From Herpetosiphonaceae bacterium (GTDB lineage Bacteria; Chloroflexota; Chloroflexia; Chloroflexales; Kallotenuaceae): a stretch of DNA of 47,443 bases. The notes beneath the pieces were generated by a model. It was given only the letters and a program-made list of their open reading frames with translations. It was not told the DNA's origin and did no database searches. Shown piece by piece: positions 26,428 to 38,382 of this stretch (the first letter of the stretch is position 1; the number at the start of each line of letters is the position of its first letter). The position numbers and the translations under genes are program-made. The DNA is taken from the NCBI GenBank assembly GCA_013821605.1, contig JACDGP010000033.1, positions 1 through 47,443 of the forward strand. The letters run 5' to 3'.

Positions 26428-26592
26428 CTAAAGAGCGGCGGCTTGTTTCTGAGGGGATGACACTGGCTGCGTCCTCGAAACCATAGGCGGTATGACCGCC
26501 GCCCAATCGCGAATATTGCACGCGGCGTTGTAGTCCGCATTGGCAGCATAGGAGCACGCTACACAGTGGAAGCTCGCCTGATTTGGACGGTT
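26428..26592 (-). pseudogene. C-terminal remnant of a TnpB (IS200/IS605-type) gene
   Basis: About 55 codons resemble the end of TnpB/OrfB. NRPNQASFHCVACSYAANAD is followed by YNAACNI, matching the zinc-ribbon end of the family (CxxC, then ADxNAAxNI). The first Cys pair of the ribbon and the whole RuvC-like nuclease domain are missing. Upstream on this strand the frame runs into DNA that, on the other strand, codes for an HsdM remnant. It is a dead fragment of an insertion sequence. Confidence 0.7.
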
Positions 26593-26889
26593 CCGTGACC
26601 GATCTGCCTTCGAGCGTGAGATCGATACGGCGACGAAAAGTGCACGCATCAGCCTCCCGACGCCGCTTCGCAAACTGATCCTAGCCGCGTTGAGCGAGCG
26701 CGAAGTGTTGCCCCATGTGCCTGAGGCGTGGATCAACAGGGCAGTCCGTGACCACAAAGACGGCGGCGTGGGCAGGATCGGCTATGAGATCAACTTCAAC
26801 CGTTACTTCTACCAGTACCAACCGCCGCGCCCGCTTGAGGAGATCGACCGCGAGATCAAGGGGTTGGAAGCGGAGATTCTTGAGCTACT
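26582..26889 (+). pseudogene. HsdM C-terminal remnant (type I DNA methyltransferase), main piece
   Basis: The plus-strand frame from 26582 reads like the C-terminal region of a type I restriction N-6 adenine methyltransferase subunit. FRDRSAFEREIDTATK and LPTPLRKLILAALSER match the helical part, then EREVLPHVPEAWI and GYEINFNRYFYQYQPPRPLE match the C-terminal signature. Between ALSER and EREVL about 40 residues of the usual protein are absent, so there is an internal deletion. There is no start and no methylase motif. After LEAEILELL (26889) the similarity stops abruptly; the missing last residues appear at 27953-28003. The sequence was interrupted by about 1.07 kb carrying toxin-antitoxin genes. 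Confidence 0.72.
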
Positions 26890-27089: not shown

Positions 27090-27574
27090 TTATGCTTCAC
27101 CTGCTAACGCCAAAATACGGTGCCGAATATCGTTTGATAGCCACATCCCAGCCGTGCTTAGTCGTTCGATGAATGGCTCGATCGTTTCAGTCAATCCGTG
27201 GGCTTTCGCTTCGAGTAAGACCTTCAGCGTTCCCATACGGTAAGGCCAGCTGCTTGTGCGGTACGCCGAGCTAATTGGTCACCAAGCAGGATGATTCGTG
27301 TCGGATTTTCAAGTGTTAGGGCGATTGCCGCTCGCTCACCGGCACCTAGATCTAAAGACAACCATTCTGATGGTGTTACCTGTGGGTCAATCACACTTAA
27401 CCACGAGTATGTTCTTAGTTGAGGAACCTCATAGCCGCGTCGCTGCCCCTCATCCAGCTCGTGTACAACGGCCGTCGGGACCCAAATCTCATCAAATAAG
27501 CGGGGTAACCAGTCGATAGCTTGGATGCGGTACAAGTACAGTAATGGCGACGTATTGCTAATGGCGTACGGCAT
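27090..27574 (-). pseudogene. DUF3368 PIN-domain toxin with a one-base frameshift
   Basis: A DUF3368 PIN-like toxin of about 160 residues. The ATG at 27574 begins MPYAISNTSPLLYLYRI, with the PIN acidic first position replaced by the family's SNTSP motif, then LFDEIWVPTAVVHEL, LDLGAGERAAIAL and IILLGDQLARRTAQAAGLTVW. There the frame meets a stop after WER. Reading one base over restores the expected TLKVLLEAKAHGLTETIEP and the family C-terminus GMWLSNDIRHRILALAGEA, ending at 27090. The missing base is most simply one G of a run near 27239. The upstream UPF0175 antitoxin is intact. A sequencing or assembly error in the G run is the alternative explanation. Confidence 0.82.
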
Positions 27575-27575
27575 G

Positions 27576-27821
27576 CTACTGTTCCAAATCCCGTAGCTCT
27601 GCCTCAAGCGGAAACACCTGGTAGCGACCAAGTGTGAGCAAAAACTCGACACGCGGCATGCCAGCAAGGTCCGCAGCGCGTCCCGATGACAGGCGACCCA
27701 ATTCGTAGAGTTTCACTGCCGCTAAGACGCGTACTTCGCGTGCAAACGCGACCTCATCAGTCTTTTCGGCCAGGAGTACCTTTTCAGGAATATCGAGTAC
27801 AACTTGTCGTGTTGCCATCAT
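27576..27821 (-). CDS. UPF0175-family antitoxin
   Basis: An 81-residue UPF0175 protein (RQVVLDIPEKVLL, then FAREVRVLAAVKLYELGRLS and GRAADLAGMPRVEFLLTLG), the usual partner of DUF3368 PIN toxins. The helix-turn-helix-like segment SGRAADLAGM suggests DNA binding and autoregulation. The ATG at 27821 has AGAGGTG just upstream; a GTG at 27827 and an ATG at 27818 are alternatives. Its stop lies one base before the toxin ATG, so the pair is a tight operon. As the toxin gene is frameshifted, this may now be an orphan antitoxin. Confidence 0.82.
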   Translation of the reverse strand: MMATRQVVLDIPEKVLLAEKTDEVAFAREVRVLAAVKLYELGRLSSGRAADLAGMPRVEFLLTLGRYQVFPLEAELRDLEQ

Positions 27822-28765: not shown

Positions 28766-31700
28766 ATGAGCACGATCGGTGGATACCAGATTATCCGACC
28801 TTTGGGACAGGGCGGCATGGGCAAAACCTTTTTAGTCCAAGATCCCCAGATCTCCCGACAAGTCGTGGTCAAGATCATTTCACTTCCTCCATCTACAGAT
28901 AAAGATGCACTACAAGGGATTTGGAACCGCTTCTTCCGTGAGGGTCAGGCCGGCGGGCAGTTGATGCATCCCAATATCGTCGTGGTGCATCGCCTTGATA
29001 CTGATGATGTATTTGGCCCATATATCGTCATGGAATATGTAGCAGGGACAACCCTCGGAGTATATGAGCCACCAAACTTGCTTAGTCTGCTTGATATTGC
29101 CAGCCAGATTACACAAGCATTGTATTTTATGCATGCCCGCCCTACGCCTATAGTTCACCGTGACTTGAAACCGGATAATGTTTTCCTCACTGAACAGGAA
29201 AGGCTTTCAACAAGCACTGGCAGTCCCACGACGCACATGGTTGCGAAAGTGGGCGACTTTGGATTAGCTCAATTCAGAACACTGCAGACAGCTGGAGAAA
29301 CCGAAAGTGGACACTTCATGGGGACGTGGCCCTATGCTTCGCCTGAGCAGATGGCGAGTGCCGCTGATGTTGATCAGCGTACAGATTTATATGCACTGGG
29401 GATGATGCTATATGAGAAGATCGCTTTATCCTATCCCTCAGCCTATCAACCATTTTTAGGACATCGCCTGACTGCATCCGACCGTGAGGCAGTACGTGTT
29501 GTCAAAAGTGTGCTTCCGCCACCGCCGAGTCTCATCCGTCAGCAGGTTGTATCTGATCCAAATGTTCAATGGAATATCCCGCCGCAGCTCGATGATCTTG
29601 TGCTGAAGCTGCTTCAGCCAAATCCTGATGATCGTTACCAGAGCGCACCTGACGTGTTTAAGGACCTGTCACGCATTCAGACAGGCCTCCAACAATCACC
29701 CGCACGTTCCCCATCAACGCTACCACCCGTTGCCTCTAAGCCAGTCGACAGTGCTCCACCCAGCACGTTCATCGGCACCCCTACGACTCCACCGCGTGGC
29801 TATCTTGAGCCAACTGACCTCATGCGGGCACGTGGTATCGATCAAGTACGCCGCATATTCTATGAACTTGGATATAACGTCGTTGATACACCGCTTAATA
29901 TTGCGACTAGTGACTGGCATACCGCATCACGTTCCAATGTTCGTCGGGCCTTCTGGATCGCAGAACACTTTACCGACATCACACCGTTTGGGATCGTTTT
30001 GTTTGAGGTTGATGACCTTTCGGCGTCTGCGCTCCAATCACTTGCGCGTGACCTACTCCGGGGTGGTGGTACATTTCTGTTTATCGCCGTTGCACCAACC
30101 AGTAGTCCGACAGGTGAGGAGATTTATGATCACCTCGTGCTAATCTGTCCCCAGCGTGACACCACTCCTGATAAAGTCAGGTTGCTACGCTTGGACATTG
30201 ACACTGCTCGGCCAACACGGCATGCTCTTGATGTATTGGGTGACATCGCATTACCGAGCCCAACGCCTGCACCAGACGAAATCTATAACCGTATCGTGTC
30301 GGCGTTCAACATCGAGGTCATCACTAAACGTTTCTATCGTGACTACGCGAAAATGTTTAACGACCTCGTGGAACAGGTGCGAATAACTAATCTAGCGGTT
30401 GCAGCATTCGATGATCCGCAAGAGGTCAAGGGCTTCGTGCAGCGTTTGCTTGGACGCCTCATGTTCCTCTACTTCTTACAAGAAAAAGGATGGCTAGGGG
30501 GCGATCAAGAGTTCCTGACAACGCAGTTTCGCTTAGTGGATGGGAAAGCTGCTAACTATTACCGCGATCTCCTCGTACCGCTGTTCTTCCAAGCACTCGC
30601 ACGTCCTGAACAGGAGCGCAATCATGATCCCGATGCAGGGCCAGTCTGGAGCCAAGAGGATATTCCATTCTTAAATGGTGGTCTGTTTGAGCTTGGGGTT
30701 GGTCAGGAATATGAGCCAACACTTTTCATCAACAACGTATTGTTTGCACCCGATGATCGTGGCCCGTTTGCCTTTAGCACAGGCGAACAAGGCGGCGTCC
30801 TCGCCTTTTTCAACCGCTTTGCCTTCACTGTCGAGGAAGACACACCAGAGGAAATTGCTGTCTCACTCGACCCAGAGATGCTCGGTAAAGTATTCGAAGA
30901 ACTGATCACTGGACGGCATGAAACAGGCAGCTACTATACTCCCCGTCCCGTTGTTGCCTTTATGGGCCGCGAAGCACTCAAAGGTCATCTGCGTACCCGT
31001 TTACCGAATACAGTATCAGACGAAGCGATTACGCAGTTTGTTGAGGAACGCGATCCGTCGGGACTAAAACGTTCAGCAGAAGATGCGTTGGAAGCTATAC
31101 GTAACATCGCTGTGTGCGATCCAGCATGTGGTAGTGGAGCTTACCTGCTTGGAATGATGCAGGAATTGTTTGCCCTGCGTATGGCTCTGCTACGTGCTGA
31201 CGAGCAAGATGCTGAAACAGCCTATCAACGCAAACTAGACATCATCCAGCGTAACCTATATGGCGTCGACAACGATCCGTTTGCAGTAAATATCGCCCGG
31301 CTGCGTCTCTGGCTTTCGCTTATCGTGGATTACCAGGGGAAGAACCCGCCCCCTTTGCCGAACTTGGACTACAAAATCATGGTCGGTGACTCGCTCGTAG
31401 AGACGATCAACGGAGAATCGCTGATTGCTGGGGTAGCAGCGACGAAAGAGATTGTTCAGCGCGAAGCCGTCGCTGGGGAGCGTGCGGAGTTACAAGCCGA
31501 GTTCGAGCGTGAGCGTGAGAAGTTATTTGACTTTGATGGAACGACCGAGGAGCGCCGCAAACTCAAAGAACGTCTGCTCGATCTTGAACAAGCGTTGATG
31601 CGGGTAGTGCTCGCCGGGCAGCGTGACAAGCTAGAGCAGCGCGAACAAGAAATTTTGAGCAAGACAGACTGGAGCATTCCAAGTCGTGCGACAAAATATC

Positions 31701-33226
31701 GGCGCGAACTCAAGGCCATTGAAGCGAAGCGCAATGTGATTGAAGAGATCGATCGCCAAGTCAAACGGGAGCATCGCCGTCCGATCTTCCCCTGGCATCT
31801 CTACTTTACTGAGGTCTTCGGCGGGAGAGAACGCAACCCTGGCTTCGATATTGTACTGGCTAATCCACCGTATGTACGGGCGGATGCCCAGTATCGTCAT
31901 TTGAGCGACAATGAGACCAACCGATTGGAGGCAGTTGGGCGCTGGCAGACCTACCGAGCGATGTTAGTCGAGAGTGGCCTCTATGAGACACTCTATGAAA
32001 AGTGGGATCTGTATATCCCATTCCTGGAACGTGCCCACCAACTCCTACGCCAGGGCGGGCAAATGATCTTTATTATCCCCGACGCGTATAATGCCGCGAA
32101 ATACACCCGCAAATCGCACGACTTCTTCCTGAGCGAAAGTCGCATTGCGCGCCTTGATTTCTGCTCGGAGATTCCCCTATTCGAAGGCGTAAGCGTTTGG
32201 AACACGATCCTGCACTTCGCCAAAACAACGCCGTCTTCACCTGATGTACCGCTACGTATCCGGCGCTGGGGGAAATCTTCCCGTGAATTTACCGCTAACA
32301 GTGAGACACTTCCTACTGGGCCGCAAAAGGATCTTGGCCAAGCTACCTTCCGCTATGATCGTGAGCAAGCGCAAAAAATGGCGGTTGACACAATACCTTT
32401 AAGGAAAATTTGCTACATGAGTAAAGGCATGGTTATTCATGCTGATGAACGGCGATATTTAGGAGCTTTCAAAACAGAAGATGTTATTTCTGCTGTGAAA
32501 GACAGTTTACATCCGAAACCATTTATACAAGGAAGAGACATTGCGAAGTGGGTAGCTGAGCGCATCCAGTATTTAGAATGGGGTACAGAACGTGCGCCAG
32601 GGATGTTTCGACGTCAAACTTTTCCTGAACTCTATTCGGTTCCTGAAAAGTTTATAACAATGGACATCGGAAGTGAAGAACTAAAGGTGGTGTATGACGA
32701 CGAACAACTACTACACAATCACTCAGCCTCGTCTGTGGTACTTTGGCATTACCTTAGCGGCGTGAGAAATAAATCAATACGTAAATCTGCTAAATACCAT
32801 GATGAATTCAAACCCTCTCAGAAGCCTGACTTCTTTCGCGAGGATCTTGAGGCTATATCAAAGGCTTTCATTCCCAAATACATAATAGCAATCATGAACT
32901 CCTCATTTGCACGAGTTTTTGTAAATCAGAGGAGGAAGAGTACACTCAACATCTACCCCGACGATTGGAAACCCTTACCTATCGCTGTAATTCCAAAGGA
33001 TGAACAACAAGGGTTTGTAGCACTTGTTGACGCCATCCTGGAAGAGTATGCAGTGTCTGGTTATCCATTGCCTACGGATGTAGCGGTACGCGTCGTAGCA
33101 CTTGAACAAGAACTTAATCGCAAGGTCTACGACGTTTATGGGGTGACGCCGGATCAAGTCTCAACGCTCGGTGTGGACCAAGCTGCAACGACTGACATCG
33201 ACGATGAGACAGAGGACGAGGAATAG
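28766..33226 (+). CDS. Ser/Thr kinase fused to Eco57I-type N6-adenine DNA methyltransferase
   Basis: A 1486-residue fusion. Residues 5-305 are a complete Hanks-type kinase: Gly loop GQGGMG (14-19), Lys36, Glu59, HRDLKPDN (131-138), DFG (164-166) and SPE (192-194). A Pro/Ser linker (310-348) follows, then an alpha/beta region of unknown function (350-500). The methyltransferase (about 505-1160) has SYYTPRPVV, motif I DPACGSG (785-791), a charged helical insert (895-1000) and the catalytic motif NPPY (1033-1036). A target-recognition region occupies about 1195-1420. Expected action: methylates a DNA site in the host genome, while the kinase phosphorylates a partner, possibly under phage attack. 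GGGAG precedes the ATG. The next gene begins on the base after the stop. No nuclease motif was seen here; cleavage would come from the partners. The kinase-methylase fusion is unusual in my knowledge. Confidence 0.9.
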   Translation: MSTIGGYQIIRPLGQGGMGKTFLVQDPQISRQVVVKIISLPPSTDKDALQGIWNRFFREGQAGGQLMHPNIVVVHRLDTDDVFGPYIVMEYVAGTTLGVYEPPNLLSLLDIASQITQALYFMHARPTPIVHRDLKPDNVFLTEQERLSTSTGSPTTHMVAKVGDFGLAQFRTLQTAGETESGHFMGTWPYASPEQMASAADVDQRTDLYALGMMLYEKIALSYPSAYQPFLGHRLTASDREAVRVVKSVLPPPPSLIRQQVVSDPNVQWNIPPQLDDLVLKLLQPNPDDRYQSAPDVFKDLSRIQTGLQQSPARSPSTLPPVASKPVDSAPPSTFIGTPTTPPRGYLEPTDLMRARGIDQVRRIFYELGYNVVDTPLNIATSDWHTASRSNVRRAFWIAEHFTDITPFGIVLFEVDDLSASALQSLARDLLRGGGTFLFIAVAPTSSPTGEEIYDHLVLICPQRDTTPDKVRLLRLDIDTARPTRHALDVLGDIALPSPTPAPDEIYNRIVSAFNIEVITKRFYRDYAKMFNDLVEQVRITNLAVAAFDDPQEVKGFVQRLLGRLMFLYFLQEKGWLGGDQEFLTTQFRLVDGKAANYYRDLLVPLFFQALARPEQERNHDPDAGPVWSQEDIPFLNGGLFELGVGQEYEPTLFINNVLFAPDDRGPFAFSTGEQGGVLAFFNRFAFTVEEDTPEEIAVSLDPEMLGKVFEELITGRHETGSYYTPRPVVAFMGREALKGHLRTRLPNTVSDEAITQFVEERDPSGLKRSAEDALEAIRNIAVCDPACGSGAYLLGMMQELFALRMALLRADEQDAETAYQRKLDIIQRNLYGVDNDPFAVNIARLRLWLSLIVDYQGKNPPPLPNLDYKIMVGDSLVETINGESLIAGVAATKEIVQREAVAGERAELQAEFEREREKLFDFDGTTEERRKLKERLLDLEQALMRVVLAGQRDKLEQREQEILSKTDWSIPSRATKYRRELKAIEAKRNVIEEIDRQVKREHRRPIFPWHLYFTEVFGGRERNPGFDIVLANPPYVRADAQYRHLSDNETNRLEAVGRWQTYRAMLVESGLYETLYEKWDLYIPFLERAHQLLRQGGQMIFIIPDAYNAAKYTRKSHDFFLSESRIARLDFCSEIPLFEGVSVWNTILHFAKTTPSSPDVPLRIRRWGKSSREFTANSETLPTGPQKDLGQATFRYDREQAQKMAVDTIPLRKICYMSKGMVIHADERRYLGAFKTEDVISAVKDSLHPKPFIQGRDIAKWVAERIQYLEWGTERAPGMFRRQTFPELYSVPEKFITMDIGSEELKVVYDDEQLLHNHSASSVVLWHYLSGVRNKSIRKSAKYHDEFKPSQKPDFFREDLEAISKAFIPKYIIAIMNSSFARVFVNQRRKSTLNIYPDDWKPLPIAVIPKDEQQGFVALVDAILEEYAVSGYPLPTDVAVRVVALEQELNRKVYDVYGVTPDQVSTLGVDQAATTDIDDETEDEE

Positions 33227-36200
33227 ATGCCGTTCATCCCGCCGGATTATATCGACAACAGCCAGATCTCATTGGGAACGGTGCTGAACCGACTGATCGT
33301 TGAGATGGAGCAACACGAGGCGGCCTTCGCTAGCGGCTATTTTGAGCCACGCGTATGGCGGATGATTGGTGCCGCACTACAACGACTTATGCGCTTCCGC
33401 TTGCTGTTAGGTCGCCAACCAGAGATCGATTTGCCGCACAATGATCTGATTAGTCTGCGCAGCTACTATCGTCATAAATTACAGGGTGATCTCGAAACAC
33501 TGCAATTCAATGCCATGCATGTCCAGCTTGTCGAAGAGCTTGTTGCCTTTCTCCAGCGGAGTGATGTCGAGGTGCGGCTGTTCAGTGGTCCCTTTCTGCA
33601 CGCCAAAGCCTATATCTTTCCCCATTATGCCATTGTGGGCTCATCGAACTTTACGCCCTCGGGCCTCAATAACAATGCTGAACTAAATCTGGTAACGAGC
33701 ACACAAGCTATCGCGCGCGACCTATTAGAGAATTGGTACGAACGTCAATGGCTGCAAGGTGCCAACTATAAGCCTGAACTGATTGGAGTCTTGGAGGCAT
33801 CGAAGTTTGGTAGCCGCGCCTGGACGCCCTATGAAGTGTTTATCAAGGCGCTGTATGAGTATTATCGCGGACGCTTAACCCCAGAGAGCGATGGAAGTGG
33901 AGTGCTTGATCTCGCCGTCTTTCAACACGAGGGGTTACAAGAAGCCATCCGCCTACTTGATCGTCACAACGGTGTACTCGTCGCCGATGCAGTTGGGCTT
34001 GGCAAGACTTTTATCGGGCTAGGACTGCTAGAGCACTATCTCATCAATCAACGTCAGCGTGGTCACATTCCTCAAGGGCTTGTGATCTGCCCAGCACAGC
34101 TGCGCAACACAGTGTGGGAACCAAGGCTACGCGAATACCAAATTGCGGTACCCATCGTGTCCATGGAAGAGTTAGGACGCACGGAATTTCCTTGGAAAGA
34201 ATATTACAACGTCGACTTTGTGCTCGTAGACGAAAGTCACAATTTCCGCAACCCAGCTACAACGCGCTACCGGAATCTTTTCCGGCTCGTTGCGGCAGGT
34301 AAGCGCGACAAGCGGGTGGCCTTATTAACAGCTACACCGATCAACAATACGATTTGGGACTTGTATCATCAAATGATGCTGTTAGCTAAGGGTGAGGAAA
34401 CCGCCTACCGTGAGATTGGCGTCGCTAATCTCCGTGGCTTTTTCGCACGGGTGGATAAAGGTGAAGCCGAACTCTTCGATTTGCTTGAATCGACCACCGT
34501 ACGTCGCAGTCGGCGTGACATTCAGCACCGCCAGGAAGCCGGCGAACAGGTGGTGATCAATGGCACGGAGATACGTTTTCCAGAGCGTCGGCTAAGCACA
34601 ATCACGTATGACCTCGATGGTTCCTACGCCGGATTCTATCGAGAAATCGCAAGGGACATTGATCGATTAACGCTGGTCTCGTACAACATTGAGCAATTTC
34701 ATACGGGAAAGCATGAGCAAACAACCATTGATCGCAACAATGCCATCATCGGTATCTTCAAAACCCTGCTGCTCAAACGCCTTGAAAGCAGTATTCTAGC
34801 CTTCGAGAACAGTGTTCGACGACAACAACACTTCCAACGCCGCTTTTATGATGTACTGACGCAACACAATCGGCTCCTCAGCAGTGGAGTTCACCGCCGT
34901 GAGTTGGCACTCCTGGCAGCCCTAGATGAGACAGCCGATAAAGAGACTGATGCTACACTCGAAAAAGCGCTGACTGGCCTCCCTAGTGCACACACGCAAG
35001 AGTATGATCTCCCAACGCTTAAGCAAAAGCTTGAGATTGACCTCGCAATCTTCGATGGCTTGCTTGCACGGCTTGACCACATTCGACAGAGCACACAAAA
35101 AGGGCATGTCCATGACGACAAATTGGAACAGGTCAAGCTTGCATTAGCGGCACCACCCCTGCACGGCAAAAAAACGCTGATCTTCAGCTACTACGAGCAG
35201 ACGGCCCGTTATCTCTACGAATCACTGCGTGACGATGCCCAATGGCAAGCAACGGTAGGTAGTCTACGACTGGCTTTGTTAACAGGGCGGAATAACGCAG
35301 CAGAACGCAAGTCAATCATTGAACGCTTTGCTCCCCGTGCGAACGGACAAGGTAACGTCAGCGATGAGATTGATATGCTGATATCTACTGATGTGCTTTC
35401 GGAGGGGCAAAATCTGCAAGATGCAGCGGTGCTGATCAACTACGATCTCCATTGGAATCCAGTGCGGATGATCCAGCGGGCCGGGCGAATTGATCGCGTC
35501 GGTTCGCCTCATGCCGAGCTCCTGATTGTCAACTGTTTTCCAGAGGAGGAACTGGAACGACTACTGGGCTTGATTGCCCGTCTTCAAGTACGAATTACTG
35601 CGATTGGGCGTAATCTCGGTAATGATGCCTCTATTTTAGGTGAAGTTGTTACCGAGAAGAGTTTGGATGAACTGAAGCGGTTGCGCGCTGCCGATCAAAG
35701 CGTGCTTGATGACCTCGCGGCAGAAGAAGAGGTTTGGCTGAGCAGCGATGATATGCGTTTACCGCTTGTCGCTTATATGCAAGCTCTAGGTGAGGATGTG
35801 GTGCGTGACATCCCTATGGGTATTCATAGTGGACGGAGCCATCAATCATTCAACGGCGTTTTCTTCGCATTTCGTACACGTGAACGTCAATTCTGGCGCT
35901 TATATGAGACTCACGGTGGCTTGCTCCAAGAGTCACCCATTACGGATAAACGTCGTATATTTCAGATGATTGCATGTGGCCCCCAAACGCCACGTGTTAT
36001 ACCTAAACATCTGATTTGGTCCTATCTTGAGCGTGCCACAAAAGATATTCTTACTGAGCTACAGCAACAACAGGGCACACAGCGACTTCCACCACCTATG
36101 AGTCGGGTGAATTATCGACTGTATAACGTCCTAGAAGCGACTCGCTCCAAAGCCATCAGGCATCATACTGTGTCTCTCAACGGTGCAAAGACAGATGTTA

Positions 36201-36481
36201 TGAATCGTCTCCTGGTGACCTTGCAGCGCGTATCACTTAAGCCATTTGAGCGCGATCCAGAGTTACGCAGCATCTTAGATGCTGAGCGCCGAGGGGTTGA
36301 TGTGGACGAATGGATGGTTGATCTTGATGCTTTCATTGTTGATCGCGGGCTAGCTGCCGAATTTGAGATGCGCCCCGCCACTTTTGCGGCAATTAAAGCC
36401 GAAGACCTTGAGTTAGTATGTTACGAACTTTTTTCGATGACAACTGAGGAGGAGCATGATGCCAGTCAAGGCATACGTTAG
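33227..36481 (+). CDS. PLD-nuclease / SNF2-like helicase, defence-operon protein
   Basis: A 1084-residue protein. The N-terminal phospholipase D-type nuclease domain (about 20-180) has one HKD motif: HAKAYIF (His125, Lys127) followed by GSSNFTPSG (138-146). Superfamily 2, SNF2-like helicase motifs follow: I DAVGLGKT (Lys260), II DESH (335-338), III TAT (368-370), IV LIFSYYEQTA, V TDVLSEGQNL, and VI QRAGRIDR (750-757). The final 300 residues are of unknown fold. A single HKD implies dimerisation to build a cleavage site. It starts directly after the methylase stop, so the genes are coupled, and overlaps the NERD-FHA gene by 26 bases. The likely role is DNA translocation and cleavage of unmodified invading DNA. 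Catalytic residues are intact. Confidence 0.9.
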   Translation: MPFIPPDYIDNSQISLGTVLNRLIVEMEQHEAAFASGYFEPRVWRMIGAALQRLMRFRLLLGRQPEIDLPHNDLISLRSYYRHKLQGDLETLQFNAMHVQLVEELVAFLQRSDVEVRLFSGPFLHAKAYIFPHYAIVGSSNFTPSGLNNNAELNLVTSTQAIARDLLENWYERQWLQGANYKPELIGVLEASKFGSRAWTPYEVFIKALYEYYRGRLTPESDGSGVLDLAVFQHEGLQEAIRLLDRHNGVLVADAVGLGKTFIGLGLLEHYLINQRQRGHIPQGLVICPAQLRNTVWEPRLREYQIAVPIVSMEELGRTEFPWKEYYNVDFVLVDESHNFRNPATTRYRNLFRLVAAGKRDKRVALLTATPINNTIWDLYHQMMLLAKGEETAYREIGVANLRGFFARVDKGEAELFDLLESTTVRRSRRDIQHRQEAGEQVVINGTEIRFPERRLSTITYDLDGSYAGFYREIARDIDRLTLVSYNIEQFHTGKHEQTTIDRNNAIIGIFKTLLLKRLESSILAFENSVRRQQHFQRRFYDVLTQHNRLLSSGVHRRELALLAALDETADKETDATLEKALTGLPSAHTQEYDLPTLKQKLEIDLAIFDGLLARLDHIRQSTQKGHVHDDKLEQVKLALAAPPLHGKKTLIFSYYEQTARYLYESLRDDAQWQATVGSLRLALLTGRNNAAERKSIIERFAPRANGQGNVSDEIDMLISTDVLSEGQNLQDAAVLINYDLHWNPVRMIQRAGRIDRVGSPHAELLIVNCFPEEELERLLGLIARLQVRITAIGRNLGNDASILGEVVTEKSLDELKRLRAADQSVLDDLAAEEEVWLSSDDMRLPLVAYMQALGEDVVRDIPMGIHSGRSHQSFNGVFFAFRTRERQFWRLYETHGGLLQESPITDKRRIFQMIACGPQTPRVIPKHLIWSYLERATKDILTELQQQQGTQRLPPPMSRVNYRLYNVLEATRSKAIRHHTVSLNGAKTDVMNRLLVTLQRVSLKPFERDPELRSILDAERRGVDVDEWMVDLDAFIVDRGLAAEFEMRPATFAAIKAEDLELVCYELFSMTTEEEHDASQGIR

Positions 36482-37529
36482 CCGTGATTCTGCAGGACGC
36501 CCCTGGCCCCCAGACCATAGTCACGAAACGACTGCTGCGATTGAGTTAGTGCGACAACTTTGGCTAGTTTTTAACCATCAGCCCGCTACCTATGCAATTC
36601 TCGCTAATCTTCATCAACCCAATGCGGACCTCGTTATCATTACTGAGCGAGGTATTGGTGTGGTTGAACTCAAGCATTACCCTGGACATATTGCTGGTGG
36701 GGCGAAGGACACTTGGTACGCCGATACAATACCAATTAAAGCAGGCTCTGCCTATACCAACCCGCACGACCAAGTTCAGTCATATGCCAACCAGCTACGT
36801 CAGCAAATGATGTCAAGCCTCTCAGCGTGGTGGCTGCTCAGTGACCGGCCACTATGGGGTAAGTTCAAAATCCATACCGCTGTTTGTTTTACACATCCCA
36901 ATGCTGTGATCGATGATGCAACCCGTTCCCTTGAACGGACACGCCAACGGTTTACCTATCAAAAGTCATGGGAACGTTTTCGCATTCTATCGCCCGACAA
37001 GTTTACTGATTGGGTTGTGGCGTTGCGATTTGAGGTGGATCAAGGACGAACAAGAAACTTCGAAGCGTACCATCTTACCGGAGGCCAGATCGTTGATGTA
37101 GCGACGCGCGTACTTAGGGGAACAGAATGGAGCGAGATCAACAGTCTTATGCCTACTGGTCAACCCTATGCATACCTATCAGTACGTGAGAATGGCATCC
37201 CAATCTTATCGCTAAGCCTTGACCGTGAGGAGAACATCCTCGGTCGCGATGCTCAGCAGTGTAATCTCGTCATCCCTGACAAATACAGCCGGGTAAGCCG
37301 TGCCAATGCTCGTATATCCCGTACGATTGAAGGCATCTTTATCGAAGACCTTGGGAGCCGACATGGAACATTTGTTAATGGTCGACGTATTACCGCTCGC
37401 CAAAGGCTAGTCGATGGACAACAGATTATGCTTGGTGGTATGGATCAAAGCGACAAAGTGTGTTTACTGGAATTCTCGCTTAAGCCGAAGACGACGGCAA
37501 AGACCTACACGAGTTCCGAGGAACGATAA
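36456..37529 (+). CDS. NERD nuclease-like / FHA phosphothreonine-binding protein
   Basis: A 357-residue protein. The N-terminal NERD domain (about 25-190) has the nuclease-like core DLVIITERGIGVVELKHY, with Asp58, Glu71 and Lys73 in the PD-(D/E)xK order. The C-terminal FHA domain (about 240-335) has LGRD, SRANARIS and GSRHGTFVNG. The usual His of the FHA SxxH motif is Asn284, but the Arg, Ser and Asn that contact phosphothreonine are in place. GAGGAGG precedes the ATG, which lies inside the helicase gene. With a kinase encoded two genes earlier, the FHA domain is the natural reader of its product. Pgl/BREX type 2 PglW combines NERD and kinase in one protein; here the parts are shuffled. Confidence 0.88.
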   Translation: MMPVKAYVSRDSAGRPWPPDHSHETTAAIELVRQLWLVFNHQPATYAILANLHQPNADLVIITERGIGVVELKHYPGHIAGGAKDTWYADTIPIKAGSAYTNPHDQVQSYANQLRQQMMSSLSAWWLLSDRPLWGKFKIHTAVCFTHPNAVIDDATRSLERTRQRFTYQKSWERFRILSPDKFTDWVVALRFEVDQGRTRNFEAYHLTGGQIVDVATRVLRGTEWSEINSLMPTGQPYAYLSVRENGIPILSLSLDREENILGRDAQQCNLVIPDKYSRVSRANARISRTIEGIFIEDLGSRHGTFVNGRRITARQRLVDGQQIMLGGMDQSDKVCLLEFSLKPKTTAKTYTSSEER

Positions 37530-37906: not shown

Positions 37907-38382
37907 TTACCACGCCGCGTCGTGCTGCTCCATGACGCCGTAGGCTTCGCGAAGTGCGATATCACCGGGCAGGGTACCCGTGAAGGTGCCGAAGGGCTGG
38001 TGATATTGGGAGCGCACCAGCAGCAGATTATCGCGCCGCGTCCTCACCGCTTCCGCCTTGAAATGTACGGTTGCGTCTTCGCTGGAAGCGACGAATGACA
38101 AGTCTTCGGCAAAGGCAACTGGCCCGACCTCGTGCGGTACGCCGTCGATCCACACGCTGCGCTCGCTGTTGTGTGGGGCGTCGTTCAGGCCCACGATCAC
38201 GCTCCAGGCCACGGCTCGGTTCATCGTATCGTAGCCGGCACCCCCGCTCCAATACCAATGCGTATGGCGCCGGTGATAGCCGGCGTTGTCATGCGGAACA
38301 AGGGCATACGTTGGGGCGGGAGCGGGATGGTGCGGGGCCGGTCACTGCCGTCACCACGGTAGGGCTGGGTCAACGTTGGCAT
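37907..38382 (-). pseudogene. Decayed gene, DUF2804-like C-terminal part
   Basis: An ATG at 38382 with AGGAGG upstream opens a frame (MPTLTQPYRGDGSDRPRT) that ends within about 60 codons. In another frame, WYWSGGAGYDTMNRAVAWSV leads to VIVGLNDAPHNSERSVWIDG, then RRDNLLLVRSQYHQPFG and LREAYGVMEQHDAAW. This C-terminal part is like the end of DUF2804-type proteins, which are about three times longer. The N-terminal stub, a frameshift and a missing middle make it a pseudogene. The family label is my best guess. Confidence 0.45.

Follow-up and report, generated by a model that had tools for sequence, protein, structure and literature searches.

A NERD-FHA protein encoded with a kinase-methylase fusion and a PLD-Snf2 helicase, and its homologue in a BREX locus

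The operon and its three proteins

The window, i.e., the whole stretch of 47,443 nucleotides analysed here from a Herpetosiphonaceae bacterium, contains a three-gene operon on the forward strand. It comprises a gene for a kinase-methylase fusion (28766..33226), followed by one for a PLD nuclease-Snf2 helicase (33227..36481) and, in last position, by one for a NERD-FHA protein (36456..37529), which begins about 23–26 nt before the helicase gene ends. The GC content of the operon stretch (approximately 0.46–0.53) is lower than that upstream (mostly 0.53–0.61) and downstream (0.58–0.65), a compositional difference suggesting that the stretch may have been acquired by transfer. A degenerate-looking stretch just upstream of the operon carries, on the reverse strand, a TnpB/Cas12f-like C-terminal remnant (26428–26757) and a segment matching PDC-S70, a candidate defence family (27224–27667). 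Downstream, also on the reverse strand, lies a C-terminal fragment of a DUF2804 protein (37907–38224), suggestive of a disrupted gene at the edge of an island.

The first gene, identified from its ORF and Pfam matches, encodes a protein of 1486 amino acids. Its N-terminus is a PknB-like Hanks Ser/Thr kinase (residues 7–292, 28784..29641; Pfam Pkinase, E 3e-30) that exhibits the Gly-rich loop, K36, the HRD and DFG motifs and several Thr residues in the activation segment, and whose closest solved relatives are PknB-like kinases. It is followed in the same ORF by an N-terminal domain common to the methylases of its relatives, delimited by alignment and a structural model (residues 346–505, 29801..30280), and by an Eco57I/MmeI-like N6-adenine methylase domain recognized by Pfam, motifs and the model (residues 830–1131, 31253..32158), so that the kinase sits on the methylase, as a preliminary description of this DNA had stated. 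Methylase motif I (DPACGSG) begins at residue 785, just ahead of the Pfam domain, NPPY begins at residue 1033, and the match to TaqI-C is weak. The protein ends in an acidic tail with TTD (33179..33223), located by motif count.

The aligned methylase core begins at residue 505 in the window protein and after approximately 155–210 residues in 23 of 23 listed relatives, a list of matches starting at the core from which more divergent ones were left out; therefore, none of the 23 has the 345-residue kinase extension of the window protein. Compared with these relatives, the kinase is, judging from the alignment, an addition to the methylase. Under an overly strict limit of 1e-42, a genome search with the kinase returned the window as the sole match. 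The region after the kinase was modelled from 24 sequences with a pLDDT of 84.8, and the helical part of this model matches MmeI (Z 10.7, rmsd 3.8, 168 aligned residues). A Foldseek search with the N-terminal region of the methylase gave no match at E 0.001 or better; a second examination of the fold gave the MmeI match of the helical part and only weak matches for the N-terminal domain, for which no fold is therefore claimed. Distant relatives at L055, L057 and L060–L065 have methylases of approximately 1490–1860 residues, compared with about 1100 elsewhere.

The second protein (1084 amino acids; ORF, Pfam and PADLOC) contains a Walker A motif and the PLD residues H125, K127, N141 and E152, which are invariant in eight aligned helicases. 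Its residues 9–819 match the PADLOC model C3a139 (HKD+Snf2) with E 7.5e-70, and its C-terminal tail (36437..36478) carries TTE by motif count.

The third gene was called as an ORF of 357 codons with Pfam support. Met2, at 36459, is probably the true start, since the homologues begin with M-x-V at this place in the alignment. The preliminary description had seen a NERD domain joined to an FHA domain in this one protein, and both Pfam matches lie well above their cut-offs: NERD at residues 41–146 (36576..36893; E 9.9e-12, 45.8 bits, cut-off 22.1) and FHA at residues 261–327 (37236..37436; E 7.3e-15, 55.6 bits, cut-off 20.7). The five NERD-FHA sequences found here, the window protein included, can be aligned from end to end. 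Within this alignment, E24 (just ahead of the Pfam domain), D58, E71 and K73 (E71-x-K73) are invariant in all five proteins, and we take these residues to be a PD-(D/E)XK-type site. A single-sequence fold of the protein reached a pLDDT of only 40.4, too poor for use. A literature search by listings found no paper describing NERD joined to FHA.

FHA pockets are defined by five residues and strictly require phosphothreonine, according to the available part of PMC8786283. The window FHA domain retains two of the residues that characterize a phosphothreonine reader, Arg264 of the GR motif and Ser281 of SxxH, both invariant in the five NERD-FHA proteins, and has exchanged two others, the SxxH His and the loop Asn. 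The first exchange, to Asn284, had been noticed before and is borne out by an alignment of 18 FHA sequences, none of the other 17 of which has Asn at this place. The second had been overlooked: His303 stands where 14 of the 18 sequences have Asn, and His is otherwise found there only in the homologue from genome G412 (see below). The exchanged His and Asn might, to judge from these substitutions, weaken phosphothreonine binding. The FHA domain of NIPP1, which has His at the second of these places, is reportedly still able to bind phosphothreonine.

A widespread core and a rare NERD-FHA family

The PLD-Snf2 helicase and the Eco57I-type methylase beside it in the window belong to a family that extends well beyond this genome. 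Helicase relatives were detected at E 1e-40 or better in 66 of 400 genomes of the phylum (the window's genome included), and 80 of 203 confirmed genomic loci were kept for comparison; the helicase is also encoded on cyanobacterial and Deinococcus plasmids, where a methylase gene precedes it by a few genes. Under a strict rule that requires a single gene run, and with many contigs cut, the methylase lies upstream in 38 of 94 loci with distinct helicases. Between the two genes or after them, the loci carry swappable cargo, including SMODS/SLATT, GmrSD, AAA/UvrD Gabija-like, Schlafen, DUF5131, sigma-70 region 2 and other genes. This cargo was scanned in 55 proteins hand-picked from the neighbourhoods, with the best 25 of 52 Pfam and the best 25 of 260 PADLOC families, so that rare domains may be missed. 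The methylase and PLD-Snf2 helicase (loci L041–L066 and L067–L146) are thus a widespread core with exchangeable defence cargo, CBASS-like cargo included.

When every ORF in the retrieved helicase loci was searched with profiles, the kinase profile found one kinase (L085), distant and on the opposite strand, and the FHA profile found none; the NERD profile found three genes in these loci (L043, L074 and L095), all of other NERD kinds. Since neither the methylase list nor these scans show another case, the combination of kinase fusion and FHA is unique to the window among the approximately 94 distinct relatives.

Full-length NERD-FHA homologues were found in four genomes besides that of the window (G232, G412, G504 and G505). 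A scan of 400 genomes from the phylum gave matches in four, namely that of the window, G232 and two in which FHA alone was matched; among 158 genomes from the class there were five with a match, which covered the full length in two (the window's and G412); within the family of G232, three of five genomes (G232, G504 and G505) carry the gene. No NERD-FHA was detected in samples, each without a positive control, comprising 246 genomes of the phylum to which the genome of L110 belongs, 47 and 199 genomes from two further classes within the phylum of the window, and 10 genomes that carry helicase relatives. A tblastn search of plasmids found none either, and exact 8-residue seeds returned nothing from genome contigs or viral contigs, an empty answer that carries little weight. 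Among the genomes searched here, the family is rare.

The three genes from the family of G232, which are the more distant ones, lie outside defence loci (L010:9017–10201, L157:8328–9518 and L158:8358–9554), with no kinase within the fetched 19 kb. The gene of G232, the only one of the three whose neighbourhood was scanned, is preceded by genes for LysM and M23 peptidase proteins.

The closest homologue found (44% identity) is encoded in G412, a genome of the same order as that of the window. Three bases after this NERD-FHA gene begins a gene for a 1164-aa kinase-PglZ fusion (L156:8110–11604, reverse strand), followed by BrxL. The fusion comprises a PknB-like kinase (residues 16–275; PF00069, E 1.6e-34) and a PglZ domain (residues 794–965; PF08665, E 6.1e-12) that scores 88.7 bits with the PglZ type B model, under its cut-off of 400; BrxL scores 406.6 bits with TIGR02688, above the cut-off. 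Upstream of NERD-FHA lie a DUF2887-like gene and, at the contig end, the C-terminal part of PglX (59.9 bits with the BREX-1 model, under its cut-off of 500). A literature search by listings found no description of PglZ with kinase and FHA.

NERD-FHA is thus found twice either adjacent to a core enzyme with an N-terminally fused Hanks kinase or separated from it by one gene; the enzyme is a methylase in the window and PglZ in G412, and these two genomes supply all the NERD-FHA genes found in defence loci. The functional pairing of an FHA reader with the kinase, advanced by the preliminary description on the basis of the window, gains support from this second locus. The kinases of the window and G412 are not sisters in a weak tree, which fits separate recruitment without proving it. 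The association also bears on a rival explanation, namely that NERD-FHA is one more interchangeable gene on the core, acting alone and unconnected with the kinase. The SMODS/SLATT, GmrSD, Gabija-like, Schlafen and other genes of the relatives favour such an explanation, as do the three NERD-FHA genes without a nearby kinase; the position of both defence-locus genes beside, or one gene from, a kinase-fused core enzyme argues against it, and we consider it unlikely.

Relation to PglW and other systems

PglW, of Pgl or BREX type 2, is a single chain with NERD, pseudokinase, kinase and C-terminal DNA-binding and sensing domains (PMC12839542). According to the available part of PMC4365076, it phosphorylates itself, and phage resistance depends on the lysine of its kinase; therefore, the kinase can be essential in such systems. 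The window resembles PglW in having NERD and a Ser/Thr kinase in a methylation-based setting, but differs from it in its separate chains, PknB-like kinase, FHA domain and lack of any PglW-level score. The preliminary description had derived the operon from a split and reshuffled PglW, whose NERD and kinase would have been separated, the NERD gaining an FHA domain and the kinase moving to the methylase. In favour of this origin, PglW and its relatives likewise join NERD and kinase (PMC12839542), and the window NERD has a weak match (22.3 bits) to a PglW NERD model. Nevertheless, PknB matches the window kinase with 179 bits, against 36.1 bits for PglW (NCBIfam cut-off 990), and the NERD domain scores higher with Pfam NERD (45.8 bits) and MAD6 (35.6 bits) than with the two PglW models (22.3 and 15.9 bits). 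NERD and kinase are encoded by two ORFs with the helicase gene between them, no pseudokinase was matched, and the coverage of the PglW model was limited to short matches.

In a tree of 31 NERD sequences (141 columns), the NERD-FHA proteins grouped in a single clade (97/89) whose neighbour was a Chloroflexia NERD family (87/89), apart from PglW and the NERD-kinases, on a weak backbone (55/85). Approximately unbiased (AU) tests rejected the placement of the window and G412 NERD domains with the PglW/NERD-kinase group (p 0.007), but rejected neither that of all five NERD-FHA sequences with this group (p 0.105) nor that of the window kinase with PglW-type kinases (p 0.39). The phylogenetic comparison with PglW that the preliminary description had proposed therefore came out mixed: the observed grouping with Chloroflexia NERD proteins goes against PglW ancestry, whereas the joint placement of all five sequences with PglW survives. 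Overall, with a PknB-like kinase and a NERD domain leaning to the Chloroflexia family, the proposed origin is not supported, less decisively so for the kinase, and we regard it as highly improbable.

Two further observations concern NERD genes of this class. The window's own genome contains a second NERD gene (L181), like the N-terminus of a NERD-kinase, whose ORF ends after 247 residues. The Chloroflexia NERD proteins at L190–L192, L194, L196, L198 and L199 have approximately 420–470 residues and a membrane-like segment; in two that were scanned, the C-terminal region had no Pfam match.

The operon was also compared with other defence systems. None of the three operon proteins reaches an NCBIfam BREX cut-off, a PADLOC scan of 17 further window ORFs gave no BREX model among the matches listed, and the DISARM helicase model DrmD scores 141.7 bits against a cut-off of 610. 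MADS (MAD6) and Dnd variants with DndF (the latter in the available part of PMC10853773) also combine NERD and kinase in DNA-modification defence, but join them in one chain; with the MAD6 model (cut-off 460), the window kinase and NERD score 104.6 and 35.6 bits. The operon does belong with the HKD+Snf2 helicases of this family that have an Eco57I-type methylase beside them, but PADLOC C3a139, which the window helicase matches, lacks the kinase fusion and FHA. An HKD nuclease and SF2 helicase with a DNA methylase are discussed in the available part of PMC10853773, where the published HKD-DNase-SF2 helicase modules are centred on an ABC ATPase and DndE and carry neither kinase fusion nor FHA. 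In KKP (PfkA-PfkB-PfpC), kinase and FHA cooperate in phage defence (PMC11341870, available part), but the FHA domain is on a kinase, a phosphatase is present and that part of the text describes no NERD, methylase or helicase. The window operon has one kinase, rather than two in a row with a phosphatase, and no phosphatase match in its three proteins. MmeI-type IIL enzymes resemble the methylase part of the fusion, which differs from them in its N-terminal domain without a conserved ExK in the alignment, in the added kinase and in the separate helicase. A further parallel is the PknB-GarA/OdhI phospho-switch, which has a Hanks kinase, an FHA reader and a Thr-Thr motif as the switch; it serves metabolic regulation and has no nuclease, unlike the window operon. 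The operon can be described as a methylase-PLD helicase module with a putative kinase-FHA-NERD signalling layer, the parts of which recur in BREX.

A putative phospho-signalling layer and its candidate docking sites

The domain content, the operon structure, the fusion of kinase to methylase and the reappearance of a kinase fusion with NERD-FHA in a BREX locus lead us to infer a restriction-modification-like defence module with a phospho-signalling addition, in which the kinase would write, the FHA domain would read and the NERD domain would act. Resting on two genomes and on knowledge of the protein families, this proposal has, in our judgement, slightly less than an even chance of being right. 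Judging by their families, the MmeI-like methylase would place a mark on self DNA, and DNA lacking that mark would be attacked by the PLD-Snf2 helicase. On sensing foreign DNA or attack, the kinase fused to the methylase would phosphorylate itself or the core proteins, perhaps on the acidic tails in which both methylase and helicase carry TT[DE]. Through its FHA domain, the NERD-FHA protein would then dock on the phosphothreonine and bring or release the NERD nuclease as a second effector.

A broader version appears to us doubtful, though worth serious consideration: a Hanks kinase on a core enzyme and a separate NERD-FHA protein may constitute a portable phospho-relay that has been added to two or more different defence systems based on DNA modification (methylase-PLD helicase and BREX), with FHA recruiting the NERD nuclease to phosphorylated core tails. 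If true, there would be a kinase-to-reader-to-nuclease cascade inside a restriction-like system, and the sharing of one kind of NERD-FHA partner by the kinase fusions to methylase and to PglZ would mark phospho-signalling as an exchangeable layer on top of DNA-modification defence. To our knowledge, there is no settled role for the kinases of BREX type 2, Dnd and MADS, and a reader protein paired with a kinase would offer a direct test of it.

The kinase and FHA domain could also be connected in other ways. The kinase might itself be the effector, as in KKP, with NERD-FHA as its target, anchor or brake; the KKP kinases are jointly toxic and need the FHA domain, according to the available part of PMC11341870. 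Given that the three operon proteins gave no match to a phosphatase antidote and that the key NERD residues are intact, we consider a toxic kinase quite unlikely. Alternatively, FHA might detect the phosphorylation with which phage kinases disarm host defences, and in response fire the NERD nuclease. The available part of PMC12904381 cites the inhibition of defence proteins by phage kinases that phosphorylate them, but this explanation leaves unaccounted for the dedicated kinase in the window operon and in the BREX case, and its probability is low.

Under the preferred reading, in which the kinase writes and FHA reads, the docking site was sought in the proteins of the operon. The preliminary description had proposed, besides the helicase, the linker at residues 310–348 of the fusion; residues 305–350 contain neither pTxx[ILV] nor pTxx[DE], which leaves this site without support. 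Matches to these patterns were found in the C-terminal tails. Within their last 25 residues, both core proteins have TT followed by an acidic residue (TTDIDDETEDEE in the methylase, TTEEEHD in the helicase). TT[DE], a motif picked post hoc after being seen in these tails, is absent from the last 25 residues in all 90 helicase and all 55 methylase relatives, with a density in relatives of 0.003 per 25 residues, and is present in the tails of five of 1156 mixed ORFs. The general pattern T..[DE] is common in the tails of relatives (24 of 90 helicases and 28 of 55 methylases); therefore, only TT[DE] separates the window from them. The five G412 proteins have no tail TT[DE], so the BREX case is without the motif. 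As a lead rather than a result, the acidic TT[DE] tails are a plausible phospho-docking site, and docking of FHA on the helicase is possible. Finally, the more distant NERD-FHA proteins of G232, G504 and G505, of one family, share DTTEDGTRP just behind the FHA domain in tails that otherwise differ, a motif reminiscent of the Thr-Thr switch in GarA/OdhI.
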